64,000 nucleotides of DNA from Polaribacter litorisediminis (GTDB lineage Bacteria > Bacteroidota > Bacteroidia > Flavobacteriales > Flavobacteriaceae): contig NZ_CP082966.1 of the NCBI RefSeq assembly GCF_019968605.1, forward strand, positions 476,001 through 540,000. Reading direction: 5' to 3'. The translations under genes were made by a program, and so were the position numbers. Shown here piece by piece: positions 5,421 to 16,536 of the stretch (within the stretch, counting starts at the first letter, position 1; each line of letters begins with the position of its first letter). The notes under the pieces are model-generated. The model saw nothing but the letters and a program-made list of their open reading frames with translations. It was not told the DNA's origin and did no database searches.

Positions 5421-5428
5421 TATTTTTG
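5421..5428 (+). promoter_or_regulatory. -7 element of the hemA promoter
   Basis: TATTTTTG matches the Bacteroidetes TAnnTTTG element and ends 17 bases before the ATG at 5446, which would give a very short leader. The nearest TTTG upstream (5389-5392) is 28 bases away, outside the usual 17-23, so only the -7 part is claimed. Confidence 0.5.
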
Positions 5429-5445
5429 TGCAACTTTTTAATTCT

Positions 5446-6681
5446 ATGCACGAGAATAAAACAACACATTTCTATAATATTGGAGTGAGCTACAAAAAAG
5501 CTGACGTAAAAACACGTGGAAAATATTCCTTATCTAACGAGAGTCAAGAATCTTTGTTAGCGTTAGCAAAGGCTAAAAAGTTTGAAGGAGTTTTTATTTT
5601 ATCAACTTGTAATAGAACGGAAATTTGTGGTTTTGCAGAGCATCCTTATCAACTAATACAATTATTATGTCATTTTTCTGAAGGTTCTGTAGAAGAATTT
5701 GCTTCGATTTCTAATGTCTATAAAAACCAAGAAGCTGTTGAACATTTATTCAGAATTGGTACAGGTTTAGAAAGTCAGATTTTAGGAGATTATGAGATTG
5801 TTGGGCAATTAAGGCAGTCGTTTAAAATGGCTAAATTGCAAAATACCACAAATGCATATCTAGAAAGGCTGTTAAATAGTGTTTTTCAGGCTAGCAAAAG
5901 AGTTAAAAATGAAACAAAATTAAGTTCAGGCACAACATCTGTTTCATACGCTGCCGTGCAATATCTTATTAAAAATGTGCCCAATTATAACACCAAAAAT
6001 ATTTTAGTTTTTGGTCTGGGTAAAATGGGGAAACACACTTGTAAAAATTTAGCAGAATACACGCAAAACAAGTCAGTTTGTTTAATTAACCGCACAGAGC
6101 AAAAAGCGATTGAATTTATAAAAGAGCATGCTTCTATAAGAAAATCGGTTATTAAAAACTTATCAGCAGAAATTGAAAATGCTCATGTTTTAATAGTTTC
6201 TACAGGTTCTGACAAACCTACTATTTTAAAAGAACATGTTCAAAATAATAAGAAATTACTGATTTTAGATTTATCGATGCCAGAAAATGTTGCAAAAGAT
6301 GTTAGAGATTTAGAAGGAGTTTCTTTGGTAAATGTTGATGAACTCTCTAAGATTACAGATGAAACTTTGGCAGTACGTCAAAAGGAAATCCCTTTGGCAG
6401 AGGCGATTATTCTAAAACATAAAACAGAATTTAACGATTGGTTAAATCACAGGAGATTTACGCCAGCAATTGCCGCTTTAAAAGAGTATTTAGAAGTTAT
6501 AAAAAATGATGAAATAAATTTTCAGAAAAAGAAAATTGTTAATTTTGATGAAAATCAAGCAGAAATATTAACTTCACGTTTTATTCAAAAAATTACTACA
6601 CAGTTTGTAAAACACCTAAAAGATGATGAAACTTCGGTAACAGAAAGCATCGAAGTAATGCAAAAAGTGTTTCAATCTTAA
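5446..6681 (+). CDS. hemA: Glutamyl-tRNA reductase
   Basis: This NADPH-dependent enzyme reduces glutamyl-tRNA to glutamate-1-semialdehyde, the committed step of C5 heme synthesis. The catalytic cysteine is in LSTCNRTEICG (Cys55). The Rossmann domain follows with VFGLGKMGKHTC, and a C-terminal helical dimerisation domain ends the protein. ATG 5446 is preferred over the in-frame GTG at 5428, because the GTG lies inside the promoter -7 element and family proteins begin just before the HFYNIGVSYKKA segment. The product is 411 residues, the normal length. It is followed after 9 bp by the hemC-hemD fusion. Confidence 0.95.
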   Translation: MHENKTTHFYNIGVSYKKADVKTRGKYSLSNESQESLLALAKAKKFEGVFILSTCNRTEICGFAEHPYQLIQLLCHFSEGSVEEFASISNVYKNQEAVEHLFRIGTGLESQILGDYEIVGQLRQSFKMAKLQNTTNAYLERLLNSVFQASKRVKNETKLSSGTTSVSYAAVQYLIKNVPNYNTKNILVFGLGKMGKHTCKNLAEYTQNKSVCLINRTEQKAIEFIKEHASIRKSVIKNLSAEIENAHVLIVSTGSDKPTILKEHVQNNKKLLILDLSMPENVAKDVRDLEGVSLVNVDELSKITDETLAVRQKEIPLAEAIILKHKTEFNDWLNHRRFTPAIAALKEYLEVIKNDEINFQKKKIVNFDENQAEILTSRFIQKITTQFVKHLKDDETSVTESIEVMQKVFQS

Positions 6682-6690
6682 TTAAATTTC

Positions 6691-8280
6691 ATGCAAAAAA
6701 TCATTAGAATAGGAACTCGCAATAGTGAATTAGCGCTTTGGCAAGCGAATAAAGTACGTAAAGAATTAAGAGAATTAGGCTACGAATCTGTTTTAGTTCC
6801 TATAAAATCTACAGGAGATATTATTTTAGATAAACCTTTGTATGAGTTAGGAATTACAGGAATTTTTACCAAAAATTTAGACATCGCCATGTTAAATGGT
6901 GATATCGATATTGCTGTACATTCTCTAAAAGATGTGCCAACTGCTTTACCAGAAGGCATTGTTCAGGCTGCCGTTTTAAAACGCGGTAATTACAACGATA
7001 TTTTAGTTTTAAAAGGTAATGAAGAGTTTTTCGGTGAGCCAGAAGGATTAATCGCTACAGGTAGTTTGCGAAGAAAAGCCATGTGGTTAAATAGATATCC
7101 AACCCATAAAGTTGAAGATTTAAGAGGAAATGTAAATACACGTTTAGAAAAATTAAAAAATAGCGAAACTTGGAACGGTGCTGTATTTGCGGCGGCCGGA
7201 CTAGAAAGACTTGGCATACTTCCTAAAGATGCTATCGATCTTCCTTGGATGATTTCTGCACCTGGTCAAGGAGCAATTATGATTACTGCTTTAGAAAAAG
7301 ATGATTTTTCATTAGATGCTTGTGAGCAATTAAATCACCATGAAACTAAAGTTTGTGTAGGTGTGGAACGTGAGTTCTTAAGATTGTTAGAGGGCGGTTG
7401 TACTGCACCTATTGGAGCGCTAGCCTATGTTGATTCAAGAACTGAAGAAGTAAATTTTAAAGCTGTTTTATTAAAAAAAGATGGTTCTAAAAAAATAAGA
7501 GTTGCAAAAACGGCAAAACTAGGAAATCATAGATACCTAGCAAAAGATTGTGCAGATTATATAATTAATAAAGGAGGAAAAGAAATGATGGCAGAAGATG
7601 AAGGTGTTTCTACTAAAATAGCATCTGTCTATTCTACAAAAAAACTTTCTGAACTTCAAAAAGAAATATTATCCGATGCTATTGACATAAAGGATAGCGA
7701 TTTTATAAAAATTCGTTTTAATAGAATTCCACCAAAGGTGATGAAAAACGAAATTGAAAATGTAATTATCACCAGCCAGAATGGAGTAGAATCAATTTTA
7801 AACTCTTTTACAAAAGATGAAATAAAATTCAAGAATATTTTTTGTGTAGGTAGAAGAACTAAAAAATTGATTGAAAATAGAATTGGTAAAGTCGCTAAAG
7901 TTGCAAAAAATGCAAAAACATTAGCAACTTATTTATCAACAACATTAGAGAATAAAGAAGTAACCTATTTTTGCAGTAATGTAAGAATGGATATTTTACC
8001 GGCCTATTTGCAAACAGCAGATATTGTGGTAAATGAAGTGGAAGCCTACAAAACAATGTTAAGTCCAAATAAATTAAACGATGCTGTTTCTGGTGTTTTA
8101 TTCTATAGTCCGTCAGGAATAGAAAGTTATTTACAAGAAAATACGAAAGACAAAATTGCTTTTTGTATCGGTGAAACGACGGCAAAAGAGGCAAGAAAGC
8201 ATTTTGATAATGTTCAGGTTGCCAATATGCCCAGTGTAGAGAGTGTTTTAGAATTGATAAATAGTTATTATTCAAAATAA
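6691..8280 (+). CDS. hemC: HemC-HemD fusion: hydroxymethylbilane synthase / uroporphyrinogen-III synthase
   Basis: Residues 1 to about 300 are porphobilinogen deaminase. They begin IRIGTRNSELALWQA, contain VHSLKDVPT and DLRGNVNTRL, and have the dipyrromethane cofactor cysteine in EGGCTAPIG (Cys237). Residues from about 325 to 529 form a second domain with uroporphyrinogen-III synthase features: NVIITSQNGVESI, FCVGRRTKKLIE, VVNEVEAYKT, LFYSPSGIESY and FCIGETTAKEAR. There is no stop or frameshift between them. One polypeptide would convert porphobilinogen to hydroxymethylbilane and then close the ring with D inversion. A stand-alone HemC is about 310 residues, so the extra 220 fit HemD, and no separate hemD is seen in the window. 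Confidence 0.93.
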   Translation: MQKIIRIGTRNSELALWQANKVRKELRELGYESVLVPIKSTGDIILDKPLYELGITGIFTKNLDIAMLNGDIDIAVHSLKDVPTALPEGIVQAAVLKRGNYNDILVLKGNEEFFGEPEGLIATGSLRRKAMWLNRYPTHKVEDLRGNVNTRLEKLKNSETWNGAVFAAAGLERLGILPKDAIDLPWMISAPGQGAIMITALEKDDFSLDACEQLNHHETKVCVGVEREFLRLLEGGCTAPIGALAYVDSRTEEVNFKAVLLKKDGSKKIRVAKTAKLGNHRYLAKDCADYIINKGGKEMMAEDEGVSTKIASVYSTKKLSELQKEILSDAIDIKDSDFIKIRFNRIPPKVMKNEIENVIITSQNGVESILNSFTKDEIKFKNIFCVGRRTKKLIENRIGKVAKVAKNAKTLATYLSTTLENKEVTYFCSNVRMDILPAYLQTADIVVNEVEAYKTMLSPNKLNDAVSGVLFYSPSGIESYLQENTKDKIAFCIGETTAKEARKHFDNVQVANMPSVESVLELINSYYSK

Positions 8281-8294
8281 AAAAGAATGTCTCC

Positions 8295-8338
8295 TCGAGC
8301 GCAGTCGAGAGGTTAATTTAGTTCTCGACTGCGCTCGA
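8295..8338. repeat. Intergenic inverted repeat, 16-bp perfect arms
   Basis: TCGAGCGCAGTCGAGA (8295-8310) is exactly inverted at 8323-8338 with a 12-nt loop, between the hemC-hemD and hemB genes. The GC-rich arms stand out in an AT-rich genome. No T-run follows, so it looks like a REP-type extragenic palindrome more than a terminator. Confidence 0.85.
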
Positions 8339-8359
8339 ACTGACAATAAGTGCAAATAA

Positions 8360-9328
8360 ATGTTCAGAACTCGCAGATTAAGAAAGTCAGAAGGAATTCG
8401 CAGATTAGTTAGAGAAACTAAATTGTCTGTAGATAATTTTATTTACCCATTATTTATAGAAGAAGGAGAAAACATTGAAACTGAAATTGTTTCTATGCCA
8501 GGCATCAAACGTTTTTCTTTAGACAGAATTTCTAAAGAATTAAATGAAGTTGTTTCTTTGAATATTCCTGCAGTATTATTGTTCGGAATTCCGTCCAACA
8601 AAGATGATGAAGGTACAGAAACTTGGAACGAAAACGGAATTATGCAACAAGCAATTCGTTTTATTAAAAAAAATTATCCTAGTTTATATGTAATTACAGA
8701 TGTTTGTTTTTGCGAATATACATCGCATGGTCATTGCGGCATTATTCATGAGAATGATGTTGATAATGATGCAACTTTAGTAAATATTGCAAAACAAGTA
8801 GTTTCGCATGCAAAAGCTGGCGTAGATATGGTAGCGCCTTCAGGAATGATGGATGGAACCATAGATATGGTGCGCCAATCTTTAGACAATTCGGGGTTTG
8901 TAAACTTGCCAATTATGGCATATGCAGTAAAATATGCATCCGCTTTTTACGGGCCATTTAGAGATGCTGCAGATTCTGCACCTACTTTTGGTGATCGAAG
9001 AACCTATCAAATGGATCCTGCGAATAGAGATGAAGGAATGCGTGAAGCTACTTTTGATGATCAAGAAGGAGCCGATATTTTGATGGTAAAACCAGCATTA
9101 TCCTATTTAGATATCATTAGAGATTTAAAGAATAATTTCGACAGACCGATTGCATGTTATAATGTAAGTGGAGAATATGCAATGGTAAAAGCTGCAGCAG
9201 AAAAAGGTTGGATTGACGGTGAAAAAGTAATGATGGAAAGTTTACTATCAATGAAAAGAGCAGGAGCAGACATTATTATTACGTATTTTGCAAAGGAGGC
9301 AGCTAAAGTTTTATTAAAGGGCTGTTAA
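8360..9328 (+). CDS. hemB: Delta-aminolevulinic acid dehydratase (porphobilinogen synthase)
   Basis: The 322-residue enzyme condenses two 5-aminolevulinate molecules to porphobilinogen. The metal-binding region [15 protein letters not shown] keeps three cysteines, which indicates the zinc-dependent type. The Schiff-base lysines are seen in [16 protein letters not shown] and [13 protein letters not shown]. Length and start ([16 protein letters not shown]) are typical. The gene lies 79 bp after the hemC-hemD fusion, with a palindromic repeat in the gap. It is followed by the GIY-YIG remnant, which separates it from hemL. Confidence 0.96.
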
Positions 9329-9375
9329 GATGTGTAATTTTATTTATAAATTAAGTAAAAAATAAATTAGCGGTC

Positions 9376-9403
9376 ATTCCTGCGAAGGCAGAAATCTCAA
9401 ACT
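9376..9403. repeat. 28-bp direct repeat, left copy
   Basis: This 28-base sequence begins ATTCCTGCGAAGGCAG and is identical to 9731-9758. It contains a near-palindrome (TTCCTGC and GGCAGAA around GAA). The two copies bracket the GIY-YIG remnant and lie just outside the hemB stop and hemL start. Confidence 0.95.
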
Positions 9404-9419
9404 TTAAAAAAGAAAATGA

Positions 9420-9723
9420 TTGTTTAAAACTCAACATCAATATTATGTTTATATTATTACAAATAAAAAAGATGGAGTTTTATACATTGGTGTTTCAAAC
9501 GATTTGGAAAGAAGAATGTTTGAGCATAAAAATAAATTGGTTGAAGCTTTTTTCATCAAGATATAATTTAGATAAATTAATTTATTTTGAAGTTTATCAA
9601 TATATTTCTAATGCTATCAAAAGAGAGAAGAATTTAAAGAAGTGGAAAAGAGATTGGAAAATAAATTTAATTATTGAAGAAAATTCTGATTGGAATGATT
9701 TATCAGAAGATTGGTTTGATTAA
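9420..9723 (+). pseudogene. Frameshifted GIY-YIG nuclease (UPF0213/UvrC-N-like)
   Basis: The first frame, read from a TTG at 9420, encodes QYYVYIITNKKDGVLYIGVS followed by NDLERRMFEHKNKLVEAF. This is the GIY-YIG core (VYIIT...YIGVS, conserved Arg, His and Glu). It then stops at 9564-9566. The second frame, ending at 9723, continues with SRYNLDKLIYFEVYQ and ends DWNDLSEDWF, the expected C-terminal half. Removing one T from the T6 run at 9548-9553 rejoins the halves at about 100 residues, so a single-base insertion explains the break. The start codon is also not ATG. Small nucleases of this type have no established physiological role. This copy should be inactive unless ribosomal slippage on the T-run restores it. 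Confidence 0.85.
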
Positions 9724-9730
9724 TTAGGAG

Positions 9731-9758
9731 ATTCCTGCGAAGGCAGAAATCTCAAACT
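9731..9758. repeat. 28-bp direct repeat, right copy
   Basis: It is identical to 9376-9403 and ends 14 bases before the hemL start codon. The centre-to-centre spacing to the left copy is 355 bp. Confidence 0.95.
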
Positions 9759-9772
9759 GGAAAAGAGTAAAT

Positions 9773-11062
9773 ATGAAATTCAAGAATTCAAAAAAATTAT
9801 ATAACAAAGGATTGGTAAACTTGGTTGGGGCAGTAAATTCTCCAGTAAGAGCATTTTCATCCGTTGGTGGAAATCCGTTGTTTATCAAAAAAGCAAAAGG
9901 AAGTAAAATTACAGACGTAGACGGAAACGAATACATAGATTTGGTGCTTTCTTACGGTCCCATGATTTTAGGACATCGTCATAAAAAGGTTCAAAAAGCA
10001 ATAACAAAGGCCTTAAAGAATGGGTATTCGTTTGGAGCCTCGACAAAAAATGAAATCAAACTAGCAAAAATAGTTTGCGATGCTTTTCCAGGAATGGACA
10101 AAGTTCGTTTTGTGAATTCTGGCACCGAAGCGGTCTTAAGTGCAGTTCGTTTGGCAAGAGCATTTACAGGAAAAGATAAAATTATAAAATTTTCTGGTTG
10201 CTACCACGGGCATCAAGACTCATTATTAGTTGCAGCCGGTTCTGGCTTAGCAACTTTAAGTTTGCCAGGTTCTAAAGGTGTTCCGGAAGGAGCCGTAAAA
10301 AACACTTTAATTGCTACATATAATGATTTAGAAAGTGTAAAAAAGCATTTTGAGGAACATGATGATATTGCAGGTGTCATTATAGAGCCAATCTGTGGCA
10401 ATATGGGAGTTGTAATTCCGCAGAATAATTTTTTAAAAGAATTGAAAGCCTACATAGAAACCAAAGGAGCGCTATTAATTGCAGATGAGGTTATGACAGG
10501 TTTTCGTTCTAAATTTGGTGGTGCGCAAGAATTACTGGGGGTTACAGCAGATATTACTTGTTTAGGAAAGGTAATTGGTGGCGGTTTTCCTGTAGGAGCT
10601 TACGGAGCGAGAAATGAAATTATGCAAGAAGTTGCCCCTTTAGGAGGCATGTATCAAGCAGGAACGTTAAGTGGAAATCCGATTGCAATGGCAGGCGGAA
10701 TAGCAACTTTAACCGAAGTGAAGAGACAGAATCCGTATGATCAGTTTAATGAAACTGCGGCTATTTTAGAAGTGATTTTATTAGAGACTGCGAAAAAATA
10801 CAATGTAGATTTGGTTGTGAATCGTTTTGGTTCTATGATGAATCCATTTTTTACAAAAGAAAAAGTGACGAATTTTGCTGAAGCTCAGACTTCGGATACG
10901 AATAAGTTTGCGATTTTCTTTTGGGAAATGATTAAAAATGGTGTGTTTTTACCCCCAAGTCAATTTGAAGCTTGGTTTTTATCATCAGCAATTAAAGACA
11001 AAGACATTAAAAAAATAGCAGAGGCAGTTGATAAGGCCATGTTTGCAGTTTCAAAAATATAA
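9773..11062 (+). CDS. hemL: Glutamate-1-semialdehyde 2,1-aminomutase
   Basis: This 429-residue class III aminotransferase converts glutamate-1-semialdehyde to 5-aminolevulinate with pyridoxal phosphate. It has the N-terminal GAVNSPVRAFSSVGGNP signature, the cofactor-binding NSGTEAVLSAVRLAR, the LIADEVMTGFR aspartate, and the Schiff-base lysine in CLGKVIGGGFPVGAYG. The repeat-flanked GIY-YIG remnant lies directly upstream, so hemL may be separated from a promoter that originally served it together with hemB. The lipoprotein gene follows after 3 bp. Confidence 0.96.
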   Translation: MKFKNSKKLYNKGLVNLVGAVNSPVRAFSSVGGNPLFIKKAKGSKITDVDGNEYIDLVLSYGPMILGHRHKKVQKAITKALKNGYSFGASTKNEIKLAKIVCDAFPGMDKVRFVNSGTEAVLSAVRLARAFTGKDKIIKFSGCYHGHQDSLLVAAGSGLATLSLPGSKGVPEGAVKNTLIATYNDLESVKKHFEEHDDIAGVIIEPICGNMGVVIPQNNFLKELKAYIETKGALLIADEVMTGFRSKFGGAQELLGVTADITCLGKVIGGGFPVGAYGARNEIMQEVAPLGGMYQAGTLSGNPIAMAGGIATLTEVKRQNPYDQFNETAAILEVILLETAKKYNVDLVVNRFGSMMNPFFTKEKVTNFAEAQTSDTNKFAIFFWEMIKNGVFLPPSQFEAWFLSSAIKDKDIKKIAEAVDKAMFAVSKI

Positions 11063-11065
11063 AAG

Positions 11066-11512
11066 ATGAAAACAGTGATCACGATTTTGTTTAGTTTGTT
11101 ACTAGTAGGTTGTCCTAAAAACCAAGAAGGAGGTTTTACGTCGCTGTCTAAAGGAAGTTTATTTGGAAATGGTGCGGAAGGATTTAAAAAAGAGAACCTT
11201 GTAATTTCTTCAAAACAAGAATGGAAATCTTTTTTATCAAAAATAGATACTACAAATAAAGTTTCTAACACATTTGAAAATGTAATTGATTTTTCAAAAG
11301 AAATGGTTCTTGTTTGTATGGATAAGGTTCGGAATTCAGGAGGATTTTCAGTTGAAATTATAGAAGTTACACAAGAAAAAGATACTGTATTCATTAAAAT
11401 AAAAAGAAAAGGTCCAAAACCCATGAGTATGGCAACTACTGTTATAAAGCAACCTTATCATATTGTGAAAATTAATAAGACAAATAAGGAAATAAAATTT
11501 CTAGAGTTATAA
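11066..11512 (+). CDS. PrcB_C-like domain lipoprotein
   Basis: The 148-residue product has a lipoprotein signal (LLLVGCPKN, lipidation Cys17). The body resembles the PrcB C-terminal domain in its [10 protein letters not shown] segment, the [15 protein letters not shown] strand, a [12 protein letters not shown] strand and a terminal [15 protein letters not shown] strand. PrcB was described as a partner of the dentilisin protease complex, but single-domain bacterial homologues have no fixed function. It sits 3 bp after hemL and 5 bp before hemE, so it is co-transcribed with heme genes. A role in heme metabolism is not shown. Confidence 0.65.
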
Positions 11513-11517
11513 AAATT

Positions 11518-12549
11518 ATGATTAAAAACGACTTATTTTTAAGAGCTTTACAAGGAGAAACTGTAGACAGGCCACCCGTTTGGATGATGCGTCAAGCAGG
11601 GAGATATTTACCAGAATTTCAGGTAATCAAAAAGAAATACGATTTTTTTACCCGCTGCAGAACACCAGAATTAGCATCAGAAATTACAGTGCAACCTATC
11701 AGAAGATATGGTATGGATGCTGCAATTTTATTTTCAGATATCTTGGTCATTCCGCAAGCAATGAATATTGAAGTGGAAATGAAACCCAATTTCGGACCTT
11801 ATTTACCAAATCCTATTCGCAATCAAAAAGATTTAGATCGCGTAATTGTTCCTGATGTTCATGAAACTTTGGGGTATGTAATCGAAGCTATAAAAGCTAC
11901 CAAAGAAAAGTTAAATGATGAGGTTCCGTTAATTGGTTTTGCTGGTTCACCTTGGACAATTTTATGTTATTGTGTACAAGGTCAGGGTTCTAAAAACTTT
12001 GATAAAGCAAAAGAATTATGTTTTACGAATCCTGTTGTTGCACATTCTTTACTTCAAAAAATTACAGACACAACAATTGCATATTTAAGGGCAAAAGTTG
12101 AAGCTGGTGTAAATGCTGTTCAGATATTTGATTCTTGGGGAGGAATGCTGTCTCCGATAGATTATCAAGAATTTTCTTGGCAATATATGCAGCAAATAAT
12201 TGATGCTTTAAAAGATAGCACACCCGTAATCGCATTCGGAAAAGGGTGTTGGTTTGCTTTGGATAAAATGGCAAAATCAGGCGCTTCTGCTTTGGGAGTA
12301 GATTGGACCTGTTCTGCCAGAAATGCACGTTATTTATCAGGAGGAAATATTACTTTACAGGGTAATTTTGATCCTTCAAGATTGTTATCGCCTCCATCAG
12401 AAATTAAGAAGATGGTACATCAAATGATCAATGATTTCGGAAAAGATAAATATATTGTAAATTTAGGTCACGGAATTTTACCAAATATTCCTGTAGAAAA
12501 TGCAAAAGCGTTTGTAGATGCTGTGAAAGAATATAAAAGCCCATCTTAA
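11518..12549 (+). CDS. hemE: Uroporphyrinogen decarboxylase
   Basis: The 343-residue enzyme removes four carboxyl groups from uroporphyrinogen III to give coproporphyrinogen III. The N-terminal signature [17 protein letters not shown] is intact, including the substrate-binding arginines, and the second signature [16 protein letters not shown] follows. The catalytic aspartate is in [11 protein letters not shown], and the C-terminus has [20 protein letters not shown]. Length and start are typical. It lies 5 bp after the lipoprotein gene and is followed by a compound palindromic repeat. Confidence 0.97.
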
Positions 12550-12616
12550 TCTTCCCAAAGGGAAGAAAAACTTGTGGTTTTAAGTATGAGTTTCCTTTCC
12601 TTTGGAAAGGATTAAG
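12545..12616. repeat. Compound palindromic element between hemE and the EI24 gene
   Basis: Two hairpins (CTTCCC-AAA-GGGAAG at 12551-12565 and CCTTTCC-TTT-GGAAAGG at 12594-12610) are enclosed by inverted termini CTTAATC (12545-12551) and GATTAAG (12610-12616). The left end overlaps the hemE stop and the right end is 10 bases before the next ATG. Confidence 0.8.
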
Positions 12617-12625
12617 GATAGGGTA

Positions 12626-13384
12626 ATGATTAAAAACATCATTTTAGGGATTAAAGAATATGCAGGCGCTTTCGAATTGATTTCAAAACTAAAACTTTGG
12701 AAATATTTTGCCATTCCTATTTTGATAAGTATTGTTACAGCAATTTTTATAGGAATTGAAGCGTATGTTTTATCTGATAATGTAGGTGCATACATCAGTA
12801 ATATATGGACTTGGGATTGGGGTAAAGAAACATTTACATCCATTAGTAATTTTATAGGAGGTTTAATTGTATTAATAATTGGTTTAATTTTATATAAACA
12901 CATTATTATGGCTTTTTCAGCACCTTTTATGAGTCCTGTTTCAGAAAAAATTGAAAAACACTTTTACGGAGATGTAACGCATCTCTATAGAAAAACTACA
13001 AATACACAGCAATTAATTAGAGGAATCAGAATAAATATTAGAAATTTAATTAGAGAATTACTAATTACGTTACCTCTATTGTTATTAAAATTTATACCGA
13101 TTGTAAATATATTATCAACATTGGCTTTATTTTTTGTACAATCTTATTATGCTGGTTTTGGGAATATGGATTATACCTTAGAACGTCATTTTGATTATAA
13201 GAAAAGCGTTCATTTTGTTGATAAAAATAAAGGATATGCTATTGGAAATGGAATTGTTTTTATGTTATTTTTATTACTTCCGATTATTGGAATTATTCTT
13301 GTTTTACCATTATCGGTTACTGCAGCCTCAACAAGTACACTGAAAATTTTACACGGAAATCCTAAAATTGTTTATGAAAAATAA
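12626..13384 (+). CDS. EI24/CysZ-like integral membrane protein
   Basis: The start is taken at ATG 12626 (MIKNIILGIKEYAGAFELIS). An in-frame TTG at 12602 lies inside the palindromic element and gives an atypical leader. The 252-residue product has several long hydrophobic segments and the EI24 family motif around ILYKHIIMAFSAPFMSPVSE, then the region FVQSYYAGFGNMDYTLER that resembles CysZ. CysZ transports sulfate in enterobacteria, but the function of flavobacterial EI24 proteins is not established. It is located between hemE and hemF and is conceivably co-transcribed. Confidence 0.75.
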   Translation: MIKNIILGIKEYAGAFELISKLKLWKYFAIPILISIVTAIFIGIEAYVLSDNVGAYISNIWTWDWGKETFTSISNFIGGLIVLIIGLILYKHIIMAFSAPFMSPVSEKIEKHFYGDVTHLYRKTTNTQQLIRGIRINIRNLIRELLITLPLLLLKFIPIVNILSTLALFFVQSYYAGFGNMDYTLERHFDYKKSVHFVDKNKGYAIGNGIVFMLFLLLPIIGIILVLPLSVTAASTSTLKILHGNPKIVYEK

Positions 13385-13483
13385 ATTAGAGCTCAAAAAC
13401 AGATAATTTACCCAATAAAGAATTTATTAAATTAACAAATCCTTTTATAAATATCGGGAACACCTGCAAAATGTCAATAACCT

Positions 13484-13512
13484 CCTGCAAGGTTTCTTTT
13501 TAACCTTGTAGG
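13484..13512. repeat. REP-type palindrome upstream of the RAYT
   Basis: Arms CCTGCAAGGTT (13484-13494) and AACCTTGTAGG (13502-13512) form a hairpin with one G-T pair and a 7-nt loop, 20 bases before the RAYT start. A related half-site (CACCTGCAA) lies about 20 bases upstream. Further copies lie inside the fused gene. Confidence 0.88.
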
Positions 13513-13532
13513 TGTTAAAAATTTAAAAATTA

Positions 13533-15161
13533 ATGAAATTAGAAATTTTAGAAAAAGATAAATATTATCATATTTTTAATAGAGGTATTAATGGTAATAC
13601 CATTTTTGACAGTGATGAAAATATGAGGTATTTTTTAACTTTAATAAACAAATATCTTTCAGGTAAAGTTTCTGTTTTATCTTATTGTTTACTAAAAAAT
13701 CATTATCATTTTTTAGTGAGAATTGATTGTGAAGGAGAAGAAGCAACTCAACTCTTTTCTAATTTATTAAATTCTTATGCAAAAGCATTTAATAAACAGC
13801 AAAAAAGAACAGGTAGTTTGTTTGAAAAACATTTCAAAAGAAAAAATATAACTACGGATGAATATTTGAAAAATAGTATTCTCTACATTCATAAAAACCC
13901 TCAAAATCATAATATAATTTCTGATTTTTCAAAGTATAAATTTTCTTCTTATAATGAAATTATAAATTTTAAATCAGATTTGATTTCTGTGGATGAAGTT
14001 ATTACGTTATTTGATGATAAAAACAATTTTATTTTTTGTCATAAAAATCCGATAATGGACGAAAAAGAAAACCTACAAGGTTCTGAAAACCTTGTAGGAA
14101 GTTCTGGAAAAGTTTCAGGAAGTTTTGAAAACCTTGCAGGAGAATATCAAGATAATTTTGGAAAGAATAAATATACCTACAAGGTTTTGGAAACCTTGCA
14201 GGACAAGTCACATAGATTGCAGGAAGTTCCAGAAAATTTCCAGGAAAACAATATTAGTCTTAAAAATAAATTCTACAAATACATAGAAAACCTTCAAGAT
14301 ACAATTACTTCTAAATTAGAAAAAGTTGATGGGAAAGCCAAGTTTGAAGAAGATCTTTGGGAGAGAAAAGAAGGAGGAGGAGGTAGAACGCGTGTTCTTG
14401 AAAATGGTGCTGTTTTTGAAAAAGGAGGTGTCAATATTTCTGCAGTTCATGGCGAATTACCAGAAGCCTTAAGAAATCAGTTTCAGGTAAAAGAAGGAAA
14501 TTTCTTTGCCTGTGGATTGAGTTTAGTGTTACATCCAATCAATCCTTTTGTGCCAACGGTGCATGCAAATTGGCGTTATTTCGAAATGTATGATGCAGAA
14601 GGAAATGTGGTAACACAATGGTTTGGTGGCGGACAAGATTTAACACCTTATTATTTATTTGATGAAGATGCTACTCATTTTCATGCTGTTTGTAAATCTG
14701 CTTGCGACAAACATCATTTAGAATTTTATCCGAAGTTTAAAAAAACCTGTGATGAATATTTTTGGAATTCACATAGAAACGAAGCACGTGGAATTGGTGG
14801 TTTATTCTTTGACTATTTAAAGGAAAACGAGGAGTTTTCTATTGAAGATCGATTCAATTTTGTGACAGAAGTCGGTAATAGCTTTTTAAATAGTTACGTT
14901 CCCATAGTTGAAAAAAGAAGAGGGTTTGAATTTACAAAAGAACATAAAGATTGGCAAGAAGTTAGAAGAGGTCGTTATGTAGAATTTAATTTGGTCCATG
15001 ATAGAGGAACTTTATTTGGCTTAAAAACAAACGGAAGAATTGAAAGTATTCTTATGAGTTTACCTCCAATAGTGCAATGGAAATACAATCATCATCCAGA
15101 AGAGAATTCAGAAGAAGCGAGACTTTTACATGTTTTGGCAAATCCTAAAGATTGGATTTAA
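13533..15161 (+). CDS. hemF: RAYT (Y1 transposase) fused in frame to HemF coproporphyrinogen III oxidase
   Basis: The open frame is 542 codons. Residues 1-172 are a complete REP-associated tyrosine transposase: YYHIFNRGINGN, the metal-binding HYH in LKNHYHFLVRI (His57, His59), and the catalytic tyrosine in LYIHKNPQNH (Tyr118). Residues 175-242 are a low-complexity linker that translates the REP palindromes (ENLQGSENLVG, FENLAG, YKVLETLQD). Residues 243-542 are full-length oxygen-dependent HemF, with WERKEGGGGRTRVLENGAVF, the histidine-rich VHANWRYFEMY region and FGLKTNGRIESILMSLPP. Where HemF homologues begin with Met-Lys there is CTT at 14259, so the native start codon is gone. HemF must come from the fusion or from an internal start (ATG 14055 or TTG 14217). 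No other hemF or hemN is in the window. Confidence 0.9.
   Translation: MKLEILEKDKYYHIFNRGINGNTIFDSDENMRYFLTLINKYLSGKVSVLSYCLLKNHYHFLVRIDCEGEEATQLFSNLLNSYAKAFNKQQKRTGSLFEKHFKRKNITTDEYLKNSILYIHKNPQNHNIISDFSKYKFSSYNEIINFKSDLISVDEVITLFDDKNNFIFCHKNPIMDEKENLQGSENLVGSSGKVSGSFENLAGEYQDNFGKNKYTYKVLETLQDKSHRLQEVPENFQENNISLKNKFYKYIENLQDTITSKLEKVDGKAKFEEDLWERKEGGGGRTRVLENGAVFEKGGVNISAVHGELPEALRNQFQVKEGNFFACGLSLVLHPINPFVPTVHANWRYFEMYDAEGNVVTQWFGGGQDLTPYYLFDEDATHFHAVCKSACDKHHLEFYPKFKKTCDEYFWNSHRNEARGIGGLFFDYLKENEEFSIEDRFNFVTEVGNSFLNSYVPIVEKRRGFEFTKEHKDWQEVRRGRYVEFNLVHDRGTLFGLKTNGRIESILMSLPPIVQWKYNHHPEENSEEARLLHVLANPKDWI
14072..14098. repeat. REP palindrome inside the RAYT-HemF linker
   Basis: Arms CCTACAAGGTT (14072-14082) and AACCTTGTAGG (14088-14098) are perfectly complementary around a 5-nt loop. 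They are translated in frame as part of the linker. The right half matches the right half of the upstream palindrome 13484-13512. Confidence 0.92.
14130..14140. repeat. REP half-site inside the linker
   Basis: AACCTTGCAGG is one arm of the same palindrome family. Its left arm is degenerate (GGAAAAGTTTCAGGAAG precedes it). Confidence 0.7.
14176..14202. repeat. REP palindrome inside the linker, second full copy
   Basis: Arms CCTACAAGGTTT (14176-14187) and AAACCTTGCAGG (14191-14202) pair with one G-T wobble. It lies 57 bases before the first HemF codon. A degenerate relative (TTGCAGGAAG) follows. Confidence 0.9.
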
Positions 15162-15169
15162 AAGAAAAA

Positions 15170-15195
15170 AGCAGGAACTAAGTTCCTGCTTTTTA
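15170..15195. terminator. Bidirectional terminator between hemF and the porin gene
   Basis: AGCAGGAA and TTCCTGCT form an 8-bp stem with a 5-nt loop. An A-run precedes it and a T-run follows, so it can serve both convergent genes. Confidence 0.85.
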
Positions 15196-15216
15196 GATTA
15201 ATTCAAATAATAATTA

Positions 15217-16536
15217 TTAGAAAGAAATTACGGCTTCTACAACTAAACCATTCATTTCTGCACCAGATAATATGTTAGACCAAACAGATGTATCAGAATT
15301 GTAAGATTGTTTTACATACTCAGCTTTTACAAGTACATTTTTTGTCATAAACCAACCAGCTCCAATATTTGTTCTTGTAATTTTTTGATCATTTGGTTTT
15401 GTTGTGCCAGAAGCATAACCTTCATTTCCGTTTACAGAATTATATCTACCTGCAACGTAGAATTGGCCTTGTTCACCAAATCTGTATAGAAGTTCAGTTC
15501 CTAGTTGTGTAAAAGAACCTTTTTCGTCTCCTTCGATTCTATTTCCTTTACTTGTTTCGTAAATTCCGAAGAATTCTAGGCCTTTATATTGTATAAATGG
15601 ATTAATTTGATATGAGGCATTGTTTTTAAAGCCTGGAGTAAATCTTCCAGAAAAATCTCCACTACCAGCTAAGTTACCACCAATATTTGCATTAAAAATA
15701 TTGTAATATCTTGATCCTGCTCTGTCTCCACTATACAAGTGATCTCCATTATTATAACCACTTTCACTAATAAAAGAACCTGTTAAACGAACTCTCAAAG
15801 CTTCGTTTACTTGACGATCGATACCTAATTTACCATAAAAAGTAACTTTTAAATCCTTTTCACCTAAAATAGCACCTGTACTTCTACTTGTAATGGTTTG
15901 ATCTACAGTTGGGTTTAACAACCCATTAGAGATACCAGCAACAAAAATATAGTCTTTTGGTTGCACATTAATTTCAATAAAAGGTTCAACAGTATAAGAA
16001 TCCATTAAATAGTTACCTACAAAAGGGTTGTAAATAGCCATGGCGTTATCAGACCTTCTAAAATGAGCATCACCATAATTTAATTGATCCACACCAATTC
16101 TTATTGTAGTTACATCCATAATATTCTTTAAAAAATCTTGTTTAATAAAGTTAAGTCTATCCATTTGTATATGCCCCCCTTTTACCCAAGTTTCATTATG
16201 ATGTCTAGATGAAAGAAAAGTTCTTAAATGCATTCTTACACCATCGGCCAATTGTACATCAAAATTTAAGTTAGCGGTTGGTAAATTTACATTTCCACCA
16301 ATTGCTGCTAGATTGTTAGCATCATTAGAATGATCCACTGCTTGAAATTGTATGGCAAAATCACCACCTACTCTTATTTTTACTTTTTCGAACTCTACAT
16401 TATTATCTTTTTTTGTTTCAAATACATTTAATCCATCATATCCTGCTTGCCTAAAATATTGTATTTCCTGTGCATTTGTATTTAACCAACCTAAGGTTAA
16501 AAGCAGCGCTAATAAAGTGTTTTTAATTGTTTTCAT
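15217..16536 (-). CDS. Porin-like outer membrane beta-barrel protein
   Basis: The 439-residue protein starts with a signal peptide (LLALLLTLGWLNTNAQ) and contains alternating amphipathic strands with frequent Gly, Asn and aromatic residues. It ends in GLVVEAVISF, the C-terminal phenylalanine typical of outer-membrane barrels. Segments such as VKIRVGGDFAIQFQAVDHS and MHLRTFLSSRHHNETWVKGG resemble phosphate-selective or alginate-type porin-like barrels, but the substrate cannot be assigned. It lies 42 bp downstream of the YceI gene on the same strand and is presumably expressed from the YceI promoter. Confidence 0.75.
   Translation of the reverse strand: MKTIKNTLLALLLTLGWLNTNAQEIQYFRQAGYDGLNVFETKKDNNVEFEKVKIRVGGDFAIQFQAVDHSNDANNLAAIGGNVNLPTANLNFDVQLADGVRMHLRTFLSSRHHNETWVKGGHIQMDRLNFIKQDFLKNIMDVTTIRIGVDQLNYGDAHFRRSDNAMAIYNPFVGNYLMDSYTVEPFIEINVQPKDYIFVAGISNGLLNPTVDQTITSRSTGAILGEKDLKVTFYGKLGIDRQVNEALRVRLTGSFISESGYNNGDHLYSGDRAGSRYYNIFNANIGGNLAGSGDFSGRFTPGFKNNASYQINPFIQYKGLEFFGIYETSKGNRIEGDEKGSFTQLGTELLYRFGEQGQFYVAGRYNSVNGNEGYASGTTKPNDQKITRTNIGAGWFMTKNVLVKAEYVKQSYNSDTSVWSNILSGAEMNGLVVEAVISF

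Follow-up and report, generated by a model that had tools for sequence, protein, structure and literature searches.

A clade of REP-associated transposases (RAYTs) resident in the hemE-hemF locus of Flavobacteriaceae has probably been joined repeatedly, by way of a REP, to HemF as one protein, and would thereby be protected from loss. The most likely reading is that a REP-specific nuclease is locked into a heme enzyme gene from which it can still be lost. The gene at issue lies on the + strand of a 64,000-nucleotide stretch of the Polaribacter litorisediminis genome (the window), where a RAYT/Y1 domain, a linker that translates REP hairpins and a complete HemF share a single frame of 542 codons (13533-15161). 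This continuous frame, with CTT at the position of the HemF start, had been described in an earlier note on the DNA and is borne out.

The frame is preceded by a class A REP hairpin (13484..13512; this and the features up to the end of HemF are on the + strand). Its first part is the RAYT (Y1/HUH) domain (residues 1-176, 13533..14060), with the HYH motif at residues 57-59 (codons 13701-13709) and a tyrosine at residue 118 (codon 13884-13886). The linker (14061..14258), predicted to be disordered with pLDDT <50 at residues 176-180 and 189-240, contains two REP hairpins translated in different frames, as NLQGSENLVG (14072..14098) and as TYKVLETLQ (14176..14202), and between them a REP half-site (14129..14140). 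HemF, the oxygen-dependent coproporphyrinogen III oxidase, is complete up to and including its stop (14259..15161). It lacks a methionine of its own: CTT (14259..14261) stands in place of the ATG of unfused relatives and is followed by the right copy of the repeat AAAAATAAATT (14262..14272). An inverted repeat 3' of the HemF stop (15166..15194) is terminator-like on the - strand, that of the convergent gene. The HemF part matches PF01218 over positions 2-295 of 295 (E 1.6e-134) and NF003727 with 421 bits against a cut-off of 297; it is a complete catalytic domain above a curated cut-off, with predicted coproporphyrinogen oxidase activity. In structural models both domains show the expected fold, which supports the fusion. 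The RNA of the linker folds more stably than its own shuffles (z -4.9), a value that speaks for structure and says nothing of the control of hemF translation that the hairpins would exert according to the earlier note. Rfam at gathering thresholds gives no match in 13300-15250, and a PDB sequence search with the RAYT domain returned six matches up to E 1, none below 0.2 and none named transposase.

A heme cluster (5428..12549, +) lies 5' of the fusion. It comprises a hemA-like gene (5428), a hemC-hemD fusion (6691), a hemB-like gene (8360), a hemL-like gene (9773) and hemE (11518), the ORFs being named by eye from their translations, except for Pfam at 6691-8280. There, HemC (porphobilinogen deaminase) and HemD (uroporphyrinogen-III synthase) constitute one protein of 529 aa. 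The cluster is followed by a gene for an EI24/CysZ-like membrane protein (12602..13384, +; Pfam PF07264). In two unfused relatives of the genus, G405 and G479, the EI24 stop and the hemF start share bases (GTTTATGAAAAATAAATTT). Three fused genomes, namely that of the window, G442 and G411, retain GTTTATGAAAAATAA as the end of the EI24 gene; their HemF picks up again at AAAAATAAATT, 701-877 bases downstream, behind a codon that is not a start (CTT, TAC, TTT). A relic of the original hemF start, ATG AAA AAT AAA TT.., now 10 codons plus a stop, persists in the window (13374..13406, +); its first 14 bases are identical to the hemF start of G405, and it includes the left copy of AAAAATAAATT (13377..13387, +), which corresponds to hemF codons 2-5. 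As the stretch ahead of the insert is the old hemF start, the direction of the change follows: the intact EI24/hemF overlap came earlier and the RAYT later. The proposal that an insertion at the hemF 5' end displaced its start is thus upheld by the empty arrangement in G405 and G479 and by the relic at 13374. The two AAAAATAAATT repeats were considered as a target-site duplication and rejected; since both are hemF codons 2-5, one in the relic and one in the live gene, a transposition duplication is not needed as an explanation. Recombination between them would result in a clean hemF, as in G405.

The relic start is not seen in the other four fused genus members (G401, G421, G415 and G453). A different sequence separates EI24 from the RAYT in G401, and the fusion loci of G421, G415 and G453 show no EI24 match. 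Directly 5' of the live RAYT-HemF of G421 lies a decayed copy of the linker REP with ~61 HemF codons (L090 3040-3270); taken at first sight for a foreign HemF fragment, it is a decayed duplicate of the genome's own linker REP and HemF start, at 72% to its own HemF. In G490 (L100 2810-3900), a hemF-start-like relic at the end of EI24 is succeeded by REP-like remnants, an unrelated ORF and then a normal hemF, an arrangement that suggests another former insertion.

The earlier reading has to be corrected in that the fusion is not peculiar to this genome: the architecture recurs in Flavobacteriaceae. In whole-genome searches, a fairer count of prevalence than the protein listing, this RAYT clade was found at hemF, with the DNA checked, in at least 26 of 397 family genomes: 17 fused (17 genus codes) and nine separate. 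Any RAYT match at all occurs in 65 of the 397. Within the genus, 92 of 97 genomes have a HemF match and seven are fused; the family and genus counts are lower bounds, with few candidates per genome scored and the best loci only fetched. Among protein candidates, the best 120 of 8000 scored all carry the RAYT catalytic columns together with HemF. Two of these fused proteins, P0003 and P0012, bear source labels from outside Flavobacteriaceae (a Paraglaciecola MAG and an isopod assembly), probably through binning error or contamination. Across 84,980 species, scanned with an alignment of 22 rows, at least 80 loci were obtained; among the matches listed, 13 reach at least 53% identity, all Flavobacteriaceae by title, with 12 at hemF and one (L108) ending at a contig edge. 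Among 395 genomes of the order, searched with E up to 1e-30, matches in the one other family reach 1.7e-35 at best. Neither the plasmid collection (best 35% among 8 of 11 records listed) nor the viral collection (one locus, 33%) holds a close relative. Polaribacter hemF matches in open frames of 558-583 aa were set aside, as HemF runs 300 aa to the stop in both that were checked (L097 and L098). In two loci, L198 and L188, the RAYT lies 5' of hemE and not between hemE and hemF.

A tree of 50 RAYTs unites its 43 hemF-linked rows, the contig-edge locus L108 among them, in one clade (support 100/98). Six changes of the fused state are needed on the RAYT tree, of which well supported branches force at least three; the AU test rejects a single fused clade (p 0.0155). 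L109, omitted from an earlier tree, is included here. A quick HemF tree of 101 rows requires 17 changes (at least four forced; shuffled mean 24.7) and places the seven fused genus members inside a clade of the genus and two near relatives (97); 12 duplicate loci were removed before this and the earlier tree, and some duplicate unfused HemF rows remained. In our reading, HemF would follow the host, whereas the RAYT ahead of it would be gained and lost, or fused and split off again. The RAYT of G415 may be of foreign origin, with which its grouping with Gelidibacter (89/84) and its class-B REPs agree, but the AU test does not reject a single Polaribacter clade (p 0.17). As to a possible joint transfer of the RAYT and the 5' end of hemF, lists of the nearest segments contained a larger number of fused neighbours for the 5' half. 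Compared with 30 unfused hemF genes of the genus, six class-A fused ones have no more than a slight excess of identity among themselves at the 5' end (0.807 against 0.791 over the first 147 bases; 184 of 2000 permutations as high), and the 5'-3' contrast in identity is not clear (463 of 2000). Among 12 separate loci, the distance from the RAYT stop to hemF is 92-226 bases in six, 549 in one and >1 kb in three; the tightest spacings are a gap of 5 bases (L040) and a coupled ATGA overlap (L033, in G328). Separate copies may represent possible steps towards fusion, from spaced genes through the 5-base gap and the ATGA overlap to the fused frame.

The HUH motif and the one downstream catalytic tyrosine that characterize RAYTs are present, and nuclease activity is predicted. 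Conservation is nearly complete in the 120 listed fused proteins (best 120 of 8000 scored), with N56 in 120, H57 in 119, H59 in 120 and Y118 in 119; H57 is kept in 21 of 22 aligned RAYT domains. The RAYT dN/dS lies between 0.05 and 0.21 in 13 hand-picked pairs (10 fused-fused at 0.08-0.21, two separate-separate and one mixed), the pair L109-L037, one of 14, being left out of this range since a start placed two codons too early in L109, ahead of a stop, disrupted its codon alignment. For HemF it is 0.03-0.12 (12 pairs with finite dS), with synonymous sites near saturation. These values indicate that the RAYT is under purifying selection.

The hairpins in the linker also bear marks of conservation. 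The best hairpin 3' of the RAYT has a mean score of 10.2 against 5.5 in shuffles. In 25 of 40 loci it scores higher than every one of 20 shuffles; it fails to do so in the other 15, including REP-less ones such as Winogradskyella L114. Of the cells in 20 distinct linker hairpins, 93.8% are paired, and both sides vary in 7 of 12 pairs, a result reached by none of 500 shuffles, although these hairpins were picked as hairpins and both choice and relatedness inflate such counts. The alignment covers 21 of 28 fused loci. It omits L041, L045, L114, L115 and L119, where no REP-like hairpin was found in the linker, and L109 and L111, whose 27 bases equal those of L051. REPs are translated in two frames, LQGxENLxG and TYKVxETLQ, both of which occur within the window; this points to a constraint at the DNA level.

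The earlier note proposed a search for stand-alone REP copies with the same arms, and such copies are present elsewhere in the genome. REP hairpins that flank the gene and have related copies elsewhere, the organization of a REPtron, thus occur in the window and, with exceptions, in relatives. Class A REPs (CCTNCAAGG..CCTTGNAGG) number 8, 25, 21, 28, 12, 4 and 0 in the seven fused genus members; of the 90 other genus genomes, 70 have none and seven have four or more (Mann-Whitney p 5e-6, without correction for relatedness). The fused genome with none is G415, whose RAYT has the other hairpin class, with three class-B sites. In a comparison of 26 chosen genomes, the eight with class-B-like linkers have 16, 16, 15, 6, 3, 2, 2 and 0 perfect class-B sites, the two in G385 and in G153 being those at the RAYT itself, and 0-1 class-A sites except for G260 with 10. 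The 12 with class-A linkers have 3-28 class-A and 0-2 class-B sites, and G168, with a decayed linker REP, has four of class A. Among fusion-free controls, class A and class B number 11 and 3 in G405, 2 and 0 in G131, and none in G479, G200 and G255. To judge from these counts, the genomic REP class mostly follows the hairpin class of the RAYT. In G260 both classes are numerous (16 class B, 10 class A) though one RAYT was found. No RAYT was detected in G405, yet it keeps its 11 class-A REPs; REPs therefore outlast the RAYT and are no proof of current activity.

Remnants of lost RAYTs in relatives indicate that the fusion is not irreversible. In G480, a RAYT piece (residues 125-168, E 9e-5) and a degenerate REP precede a normal ATG-hemF. 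In G431 (L105), ATA occupies the position of the old HemF methionine and a REP but no RAYT stands at hemF; a TTG within the linker remnant may serve as the HemF start. This genome contains 33 class-A REPs. In G477 the old methionine is replaced by TTT, with an ATG just upstream; as neither REP nor RAYT is matched, it is the weakest of the three traces. G431 and G477 look like former fusions in which HemF now starts in the linker remnant. Such losses qualify the notion that the fusion acts as an addiction-like arrangement. The notion stays plausible, the HemF ATG being gone in 20 of 28 fused loci and no alternative start being left in two of 28. The lock is leaky, however: only a RAYT fragment survives in G480, G431 and G477 look formerly fused, and a second coproporphyrinogen oxidase, HemN, scores above its curated cut-off elsewhere in the genome of the window (G000:C1:1353975). 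HemF is thus not the sole enzyme of its step, which weakens the description of hemF as essential. That only seven of 97 genus genomes are fused also makes the lock weak.

Collectively, these data suggest the following course. A RAYT clade resides in the hemE-hemF locus of Flavobacteriaceae, and in several lineages its ORF reads on across the REP downstream of it into hemF, from which a single protein would result. Translation in the window would start at the RAYT ATG (13533) and yield an N-terminal HUH/tyrosine nuclease, a disordered linker (REP-encoding in most sampled cases) and HemF. As the HemF start is gone in most sampled fused genes, HemF supply would depend on the RAYT frame. The intact nuclease may maintain a small population of matching genomic REPs, and the fusion, reversible as it is, would shield the RAYT from loss and couple its expression to a heme gene. 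It is tempting to generalize this to start-codon capture, in which a domesticated transposase persists over very long times through repeated fusion, by way of its own REP, to a host biosynthetic enzyme whose start decays, loss of the frame then costing the enzyme, and in which the nuclease maintains its REPs; this wider proposal is tentative, with rather less than an even chance of being right.

Start codons bear on a different reading, in which one frame gives two products: HemF would be made mainly from an internal start in the linker (TTG 14217 or ATG 14055), and the long frame would be a by-product of translational coupling. In-frame starts are available in the window (GTG 13989, ATG 14055, and TTG 14187, 14196 and 14217) and in 26 of 28 fused loci, and the HemF methionine is kept in 54 of the 120 listed fused proteins (best 120 of 8000 candidates scored), where a separate HemF could be made for that reason. 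The apparent linker starts of G477 and G431 and the coupled ATGA of G328 agree with it. However, in all 28 fused loci the linker is open and in phase, each other frame being open in none; between RAYT residue 150 and HemF, L047 and L110 contain no in-frame ATG, GTG or TTG; and the ancestral ATG is lost in 20 of 28: at the HemF start, the 28 distinct fused loci have ATG in eight, TTG in one and other codons in 19, against ATG in all 12 separate loci. The balance makes two products rather unlikely as the main account.

HemF forms a dimer. The RAYT could be a host tool, its tether to HemF being regulatory, for instance for sensing heme status or for pairing two RAYTs on the dimer. The conserved catalytic residues and the low dN/dS would suit such a role, as would the residence of the RAYT in the hemE-hemF locus even when separate: in nine further loci it adjoins hemE and hemF in eight, all of one genus code, the exception being G727, from the genus of the window. 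Patchy presence and loss traces argue against it, as does a linker that is predicted to be disordered and is widely variable among the listed proteins, and we consider this role unlikely. A recent one-off insertion in this strain would fit the relic start and the empty sites of relatives, but the fusion is conserved in the family sample (17 genus codes) and in 120 listed proteins, which refutes a one-off event as a full account and leaves it very improbable. A sequencing or assembly artefact is excluded for practical purposes by the comparative data, with many independent assemblies, a single-contig genome here and the frame kept in 28 of 28 loci.

The fused protein has both likenesses to known systems and differences from them. 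With RAYT/TnpAREP (PDB 4er8) it has in common the HUH motif, the single tyrosine, the fold, and REPs flanking the gene and scattered genome-wide. It differs in its in-frame fusion to a metabolic enzyme, its coding downstream REP, moderate REP numbers (4-28 class-A sites in six fused genus genomes) and hairpins without a GTAG foot. E. coli-type TnpAREP has GTAG at the REP 5' foot, a tetranucleotide whose role is treated in part of PMC8266576; in the window, GTAG is absent from the 8 bases 5' of all three hairpins on either strand. Subclass 2.4 of TnpAY1, as presented in sections of Quentin et al. 2018 (PMC6006769), shares Bacteroidetes members and REPs inside tnpAREP genes, whereas the signature residues of the window, NHYH and YIHKNP, have no exact match in its lists for subclasses 2.4 and 2.6. 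The words 'hemF' and 'fused' are absent from the main text of that paper, parts of which report that a few unexpectedly long proteins were discarded and attributed to gene fusions or annotation errors. Unlike ordinary HemF, the fused protein begins with a nuclease domain, and the start codon proper to HemF is often missing. The database label 'coproporphyrinogen III oxidase/REP element-mobilizing transposase RayT' denotes the same fused proteins by name only, and no analysis attached to it was found. Among the matches listed, in a literature coverage outside which most subscription journals lie, no title or abstract describes a RAYT-HemF fusion; papers naming both RAYT and HemF terms look, by title, like chance co-occurrence, and the others are mostly general RAYT/REP papers.

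Passages of Park et al. 2021 (PMC8049555) argue that more than horizontal transfer is needed to account for the persistence of the repeats, and propose a host benefit. Physical capture of a heme enzyme gene would be a second, directly testable route to RAYT persistence, and may help to explain the survival of RAYTs as single-copy genes over millions of years. It would leave a DNA nuclease riding on a housekeeping enzyme. Loci that are empty, adjacent, coupled, fused or apparently ex-fused form a natural series for its study.

The genome of the window also encodes a second, stand-alone RAYT (L107, G000:C1:3712222-3712869) with its own REP class, mostly ACCTCACAGGTTTT..AAAACCTGTGAGGT. A wider pattern for these REPs, ACCTNNNAGGTTTT..AAAACCTNNNAGGT, occurs at 21 sites, most of them ACCTCACAGG, and three of the 21 lie beside this second RAYT.
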